A DNA stretch of 64,000 bases. Origin: Thermosphaera sp. Lineage in GTDB: Archaea; Thermoproteota; Thermoprotei_A; Sulfolobales; Desulfurococcaceae. The DNA is taken from contig JAWBNK010000001.1 of NCBI GenBank assembly GCA_038827615.1, positions 930,290-994,289 on the forward strand. Reading direction: 5' to 3'. Below the pieces are notes generated by a model, which made no database searches, was not told the DNA's origin, and saw only the letters and a program-made list of their open reading frames with translations. The position numbers and the translations under genes are program-made. This document shows, piece by piece, positions 8,733 through 52,053 of this stretch. Numbering within the stretch: the stretch's first letter is position 1; the number at the start of each line of letters is the position of its first letter.

Positions 8733-8838
8733 GGGGCCGTAGTCTAGCCTGGCTAGGATGCCGGCCTGGGGTGATTACCCCGCTGGCCAGGTAAGCCCGG
8801 AGCGCCGGTGATCCCGGGTTCAAATCCCGGCGGCCCCA
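8733..8838 (+). tRNA. tRNA-Pro (GGG) with intron after position 37
   Basis: The acceptor stem GGGGCCG (8733-8739) pairs with CGGCCCC (8831-8837) before discriminator A 8838. The D stem is GTCT/GGAT, the anticodon stem CCGGC (8761-8765)/GCCGG (8804-8808), and the T arm CCGGG-TTCAAAT-CCCGG. Restoring a 7-base loop with C32 and T33 gives anticodon GGG at 8768-8770. That requires removing 31 bases, 8772-8802, at the canonical 37/38 site cut by the archaeal splicing endonuclease. The boundary could shift by one base because 8771 and 8802 are both G. CCA is not encoded. Confidence 0.95.
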
Positions 8839-51035: not shown

Positions 51036-51923
51036 ATGTATAAAACCGTTATGAAGAACGTTTACGTAATCCCAGGGAGCCCGAACACCATTGTTATTAA
51101 ATGCTCGGACTACAACTGGGTTGTTGACCCGGGAATGCTGGCTAGCCGCGAGGTCGTCTTGAAAGAATCCCTATCCAGGCTTGGCGTCAGCGAATACGAT
51201 GTCCTTCTCTCCCACACTCATTACGATCATATCGAAGCCTTAAGTATTCTAAACCCAAGGAGAGTGTTTGTCGCGGCTGAAGAGTATAGTAGTATGGTGA
51301 ATAGTGAAGTTAGAAACGCGTTAACATATGGATTCAACCAACTACCGCTCCTAATTGGATTAAAACGCATCGAGCTACAAAGGAACTCTGTGAGAATCGT
51401 TAGTGAAGAATTCAAGCTTGGAGACTTTTGCGGAGAACTGGTCGACCTCAAAGGACACTCACCAGGGCTCCTAGGGTTGACTATAGAAGACGCAATATTT
51501 GTCGCGGACTCAGTGTTCGGAGACAAACTCCTAGCAAGAGTTGGAATACCTTATCATTTCAACATCGAACTAGCTGTAAAAGCCCTAGAGAAAGCCCGAA
51601 AATATGCTGAAGACGGTTATTCAGGCATTCTCAGCCACGGTCCCTTCGTTAACAGCAAGAAGTTGGAAGAGTTCATCGACCTCAACCTCGATAGGCTTAG
51701 GAAGATAGAGGAGTTTACAATAGAATATCTCAGCCTACAATCGCTGTCGCTTGAAGAATTAGTAGCAAAGATCCTTGAAACCCTGGGATCACAATTGAGC
51801 ATTGAAAACATAATATTGGGGACGGTGACGGTCAACTCGATTCTCTCCAAATTATCCAGGGATCGGGGGCTAACAGCGGAATTGAGGGACAACGTTGTAA
51901 AGTACCGTTTGGGGAGGAAATAA
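51036..51923 (+). CDS. MBL-fold metallo-hydrolase
   Basis: The HxHxDH motif is in LLSHTHYDHIEAL at about residue 66. Later ligands are in DLKGHSPGLLGL, FVADSVFG and ILSHGPF, giving a glyoxalase-II-like metal site. The C-terminal 80 residues (LEELVAKILETLG...) look like a small helical winged-helix domain as in Lactb2-type nucleases. Substrate unknown; thioester or RNA hydrolysis are both possible. It ends just before the C/D box RNA on the opposite strand. Confidence 0.82.
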   Translation: MYKTVMKNVYVIPGSPNTIVIKCSDYNWVVDPGMLASREVVLKESLSRLGVSEYDVLLSHTHYDHIEALSILNPRRVFVAAEEYSSMVNSEVRNALTYGFNQLPLLIGLKRIELQRNSVRIVSEEFKLGDFCGELVDLKGHSPGLLGLTIEDAIFVADSVFGDKLLARVGIPYHFNIELAVKALEKARKYAEDGYSGILSHGPFVNSKKLEEFIDLNLDRLRKIEEFTIEYLSLQSLSLEELVAKILETLGSQLSIENIILGTVTVNSILSKLSRDRGLTAELRDNVVKYRLGRK

Positions 51924-51964: not shown

Positions 51965-52023
51965 AAGATCAGAACTCAAGACCTTCATCACGGGTTTTCA
52001 GGTCTCCCGAGATCATCATGCAC
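51965..52023 (-). ncRNA. C/D box guide sRNA (2'-O-methylation guide)
   Basis: Minus strand, in order: box C ATGATGA (52019-52013), an 11-base guide TCTCGGGAGAC (52012-52002), box D' CTGA (52001-51998), a 7-base spacer, box C' TGATGA (51990-51985), a 12-base guide AGGTCTTGAGTT (51984-51973), and box D CTGA (51972-51969). All four boxes match consensus and the spacings are those of archaeal double-guide sRNAs bound by L7Ae, Nop5 and fibrillarin. By the N-plus-five rule the methylated residues would be the C in GUCU(C)CCGAGA and in AACU(C)AAGACCU of target rRNA or tRNA. Flank ends are approximate. Confidence 0.88.
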
Positions 52024-52053
52024 ACATACATATTCGCGTAGGATGTTATATCT

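Follow-up and report, generated by a model that had tools for sequence, protein, structure and literature searches.

The window analyzed here, a stretch of 64,000 nucleotides from a Thermosphaera genome, carries between two genes a short sequence with the boxes of an archaeal C/D guide RNA, and this raises two questions: whether the locus encodes such an RNA and, if so, which nucleotides its two guides would address. Inspection of the minus strand from 52019 to 51969 gives ATGATGA-TCTCGGGAGAC-CTGA-AAACCCG-TGATGA-AGGTCTTGAGTT-CTGA. The preliminary description of the locus had reported four consensus boxes, guides of 11 and 12 bases and a 7-base spacer on the minus strand, in a 130-base spacer separating convergent genes, and both the architecture and the location proved exact. 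The mature sRNA probably ends a few bases beyond the interval from box C to box D. The candidate TATA element directly follows the stop codon of the PD-(D/E)XK nuclease gene upstream, which is itself preceded by a NUDIX gene in the same orientation. The features are as follows.

Ends at 51923, plus strand: flanking gene, metallo-beta-lactamase-fold protein
51969..52019, minus strand: core of the box C/D sRNA, from box C to box D (sequence, shuffles, orthologs)
51969..51972, minus strand: box D, CTGA (sequence)
51973..51984, minus strand: D guide, AGGTCTTGAGTT, 12 nt, nucleotides 2-11 of which pair with tRNA-Leu(CAA) 31-40, with C34 at D+5
51985..51990, minus strand: box C', TGATGA (sequence; kept in congeners)
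51997-51991, minus strand: D'-C' spacer, AAACCCG, 7 nt (sequence)
51998..52001, minus strand: box D', CTGA (sequence)
52002..52012, minus strand: D' guide, TCTCGGGAGAC, 11 nt, with the conserved core CTCGG at 52011-52007
52013..52019, minus strand: box C, ATGATGA (sequence; kept in congeners)
52045..52050, minus strand: TATAAC, candidate TATA element, 31 nt upstream of box C
Stop codon at 52056-52054, minus strand: flanking gene, PD-(D/E)XK nuclease

The identification as an archaeal box C/D sRNA gene, already proposed in the preliminary description, is strongly supported by the boxes, their conservation and the target of the D guide. The consensus boxes C, D', C' and D occur in this order, the D'-C' spacer is short, and both guides fall within the range of about 10-12 nt given for archaeal C/D sRNAs (PMC4644070). 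When spacers of 2-14 and guides of 8-14 bases were allowed, the window contained a single four-box arrangement and 200 dinucleotide shuffles contained none, in agreement with the earlier view that it would hardly arise by chance. A search restricted to 7-base spacers, which places C/D sRNAs with other spacers outside the count, gave one occurrence in the 1.36 Mb genome and none of a reversed control pattern. No Rfam family reached its gathering score at the locus. The best sub-threshold matches fall exactly on the interval and strand of the sRNA and are archaeal C/D families, namely snoPyro_CD (RF00095; 23.5 bits against a gathering threshold of 45 bits, E 0.007) and sR3 (23.1 bits, E 0.0005), both in a 301-base search. 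Folding gave no signal (z 0.51), and none is expected for box C/D RNAs. The missing gathering-level match and folding signal are what could be said for a chance resemblance with no RNA gene at the locus, a reading that we regard as extremely improbable in view of the empty shuffles, a D-guide pattern that recurs across the order with no hit for its control, a tRNA target in exact register, and the selective conservation of boxes and guides described below.

In two congeners the sRNA lies between the same two neighbor genes, and its boxes and guides are kept while the spacer and flanks have diverged. The D guide differs only at nucleotide 1, and the D' guide only at nucleotide 11 in one of the two species, so that 10 of its 11 bases are identical in the three congeneric species, next to a spacer that is not conserved. 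In each of the three Thermosphaera species compared, TATAAC precedes box C by 31 nt. In the minus-strand sequence, GAGACC (52006-52001, the last five bases of the D' guide plus the first of box D') is complementary to GGTCTT (51983-51978) in the D guide, over 6 pairs including one G-U. This pairing, which is seen in the centroid fold and shared by the two congeners, might account for the conservation of GAGAC within the genus.

Beyond the genus, the order was searched with a pattern in which only GATG and GGTCTTGAGTNCTGA are fixed; of 214 genomes, 121 had an RNA with the same D guide, and the control pattern had no hit. One of the 121 (genome G141) has a sequence resembling a chance match. A scan of named genomes with the D' core and the D guide returned 52 contigs, 51 of them titled as archaea of the same group, and the remaining one, from the bacterium Maritalea, is presumably a chance hit. 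One genome (G088) has two near-identical copies of the sRNA, on contigs 15 and 109, that differ within the D'-C' spacer, which may mean that the gene is truly duplicated or that two strains were assembled together.

Which RNA does the D guide address? Among the 16S, the 23S and the 46 tRNAs of the same genome, its best partner is the following tRNA, in the register of C34.

Contig 1, 1041299-1041399: tRNA-Leu(CAA) gene, intron-containing

Nucleotides 2-11 of the guide pair with positions 31-40 of the mature tRNA in 10 contiguous base pairs, nine Watson-Crick and one G-U at position 39, and nucleotide 5 stands opposite the wobble C34, that is, at D+5. The precursor, in which a 16-base intron follows position 37, pairs about equally well. 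The preliminary description had predicted the target AACU(C)AAGACCU; the residue it singled out is indeed C34 of tRNA-Leu(CAA), but agreement with this tRNA stops short of the full 12-mer, and the duplex is limited to these 10 pairs. Only 1 of 150 shuffled guides equals the score of the D guide on the tRNA set, whereas its score on rRNA is below the shuffle mean. Taken by itself, this shuffle test is modest evidence, and the case for C34 is made by the exact D+5 register together with the conservation. The invariance of the D guide across the 51 genera considered below is no part of it, since the pattern that recovered them fixes this guide.

We therefore read the locus, at a probability of roughly 0.92, as a box C/D sRNA gene whose D guide is predicted to direct Cm34 in tRNA-Leu(CAA). 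The basis is computational: the boxes, the 10-bp pairing, C34 at D+5, the order-wide D guide, and the conserved neighbors and TATA element. L7Ae, Nop5 and fibrillarin would join the transcript in an RNP, the D guide would pair with the anticodon loop of tRNA-Leu(CAA), either mature or in the intron-containing precursor, and fibrillarin would then 2'-O-methylate the wobble C34. By analogy with other tRNAs carrying Cm34, the modification may serve the tight pairing of C34 with G3.

Other tRNAs, among them Leu(CAG) and Leu(UAA), pair with the D guide only slightly less well, and these two are possible weaker substrates. With the anticodon loop of tRNA-Leu(CAG), the guide forms 8 Watson-Crick and 2 G-U pairs over ten positions with C34 opposite nucleotide 5, and one sRNA might thus serve the two leucine tRNAs (CAA) and (CAG). 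On the side of the tRNAs, an intron after position 37 of tRNA-Leu(CAA) is present in many genomes of the family of the window and of family f9, and it differs in length and sequence among genera; the tRNA-Leu(CAA) genes recovered from families f3 and f8 have no intron. The window itself has an intron-containing tRNA on the plus strand (8733-8838) that the default run of ARAGORN missed and that is called tRNA-Ser(gga) when introns are allowed. In its body it resembles tRNA-Pro(TGG), and it is probably a tRNA-Pro(GGG).

The D' guide behaves differently. The preliminary description had proposed to search both target 12-mers against the rRNAs and tRNAs of the genome, and while the D guide found tRNA-Leu(CAA), the D' guide found no target there beyond chance. 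The predicted sequence, GUCU(C)CCGAGA (GUCUCCCGAGA), is absent from the 16S, the 23S and the 46 tRNAs, and the prediction is not upheld. A double guide, an optional trait of the class, is not seen in the rRNA pairings: the best rRNA pairing of the D' guide scores 8.0, which 84 of 150 shuffled guides equal. In the tRNA set its best match is to intron sequence of pre-tRNA-Ser(CGA), and 12 of 150 shuffled guides equal it. When the D' guides of 11 genomes were compared, no rRNA position paired with them consistently.

Conservation of the D' guide across the order is confined to one part of it. In a hand-picked sample of 51 genera with one genome each, CTCGG follows shortly after box C in 35, and the half of the guide next to D' varies. 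In the 33 genera with exact placement of CTCGG, a subset in which the invariance of the core results from its selection, the four positions beside D' have 0.02-0.55 bits, and the base before CTCGG is G in 22. A widespread core combined with a drifting other half is unlike a methylation guide conserved across the order. Hence, the CTCGG core is under constraint, and the D' half is probably no guide for a methylation that the whole order shares.

In some lineages CTCGG is replaced by other D' guides that recur: CCCCGCGC in family f8, TAGCGGG in parts of families f6 and f3, and CCTCGTAG in one genus of family f9. Pairing tests of these guides against tRNA-Leu(CAA) and rRNA gave no convincing target. 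We also noticed by eye that CTCGG could be the hairpin partner of a D' box reading CYGAG in several genera, the species of the window not being among them. Further candidates for the D' guide were rejected. A guide for C34 of tRNA-Gly(CCC) would fit a loop with CUCCCGA, but the gene in the window reads CCCCCCAAG. Methylation of position 10 of tRNA-Leu as a general rule is contradicted by nucleotide 5 of the guide, which is G, C, A or T where C10 is invariant among the recovered tRNAs. A complementarity of the D' guides of all lineages to tRNA-Leu(CAA) fails in most lineages that lack CTCGG, whose guides are at shuffle level. Finally, a search of the sense strand superseded the good matches to 16S, which had fallen on the antisense strand at the rRNA locus.

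What, then, could maintain the core? In tRNA-Leu(CAA) it could pair with nucleotides 11-15 of the D-arm, and with nucleotide 16 as well if the adjoining base is G, and the D' guide could therefore dock on the tRNA that the D guide methylates, anchoring or opening the substrate with no methylation of its own. The position of CTCGG beside box C in most sampled genera, next to a drifting D'-proximal half, agrees with such a role, as does the preceding G, which matches C16. All recovered tRNA-Leu(CAA) contain CCGAG, though the search pattern required it, and this motif is also common to other tRNAs and present in rRNA. Extended pairing with the D-arm was found in 3 of the 33 genomes tested (G023, G033 and G103; p <=0.002 by shuffling), and three striking matches among 33 tests are suggestive at most. 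In the genome of the window the pairing does not exceed chance (p 0.22) and 18 of 40 decoy tRNAs equal it, nothing comparable is seen in most lineages without CTCGG, and nucleotide 5 of the guide does not covary with C10. We consequently hold docking to be unlikely, and the complete scheme, a C/D sRNA that grips one tRNA twice, methylating C34 through its D guide and anchoring the unmethylated D-arm through CTCGG, to be improbable.

The D' guide could instead have a methylation target of its own within the genus, either in another RNA or at a weakly paired rRNA site such as these two.

23S 491-498: candidate weak D' site, 8 bp
16S 638-646: candidate weak D' site, 9 bp, two of them G-U

Both sites are unchanged in the congeners, and the near-identity of the D' guide in the three species, beside a diverged spacer, also points this way. 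Yet the rRNA score is within easy reach of shuffled guides, the rRNA position is not consistent among the 11 genomes, and the tRNA match falls within an intron, absent from the mature tRNA. A genus-specific target of this kind is possible but doubtful.

Guides of this kind have precedents. In Pyrococcus, C/D sRNAs serve tRNA-Leu(CAA), Leu(UAA), Met and Trp at their first anticodon position, and sRNAs that target tRNAs usually have one guide without a target (PMC7994747). In hyperthermophiles, which have many C/D sRNAs, a third of those examined lacked complementarity to rRNA (PMC4644070). C34 of tRNA-Leu(CAA) is among the sites predicted in P. furiosus (PMC7668247). It counts against our prediction that several guide-dependent sites predicted in the tRNAs of this species went undetected in the work of Wolff et al. 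(PMC7668247). The Pyrococcus sRNA predicted for C34 of tRNA-Leu(CAA) (PMC7994747, PMC7668247) shares with the present one, by its description, the class of RNA, the tRNA and the nucleotide; it belongs to another archaeal phylum. The Pyrobaculum C/D families with tRNA targets (Lui et al. 2018, as reported in PMC7994747) likewise have one guide with no evident target, whereas here the core of the targetless D' guide is conserved in most genera of the order. The C/D RNA in the intron of pre-tRNA-Trp (sR50) also acts on the wobble C34 of an intron-containing tRNA. However, sR50 is the intron of its own target and uses both guides (Cm34 and Um39), whereas the Thermosphaera sRNA is a separate gene that would act in trans. 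While sRNAs for C34 of tRNA-Leu(CAA) had already been predicted in Pyrococcus, the present analysis identifies the target for this RNA and maps its spread in the order.

These results give a specific and testable target to a guide RNA that lies below the Rfam thresholds, and they isolate a conserved guide half in an RNA small enough to be dissected in vitro. Over half of the genomes that were searched in the order share one guide for wobble methylation, a recurrence which suggests that Cm34 in tRNA-Leu(CAA) would be worth keeping for these archaea.
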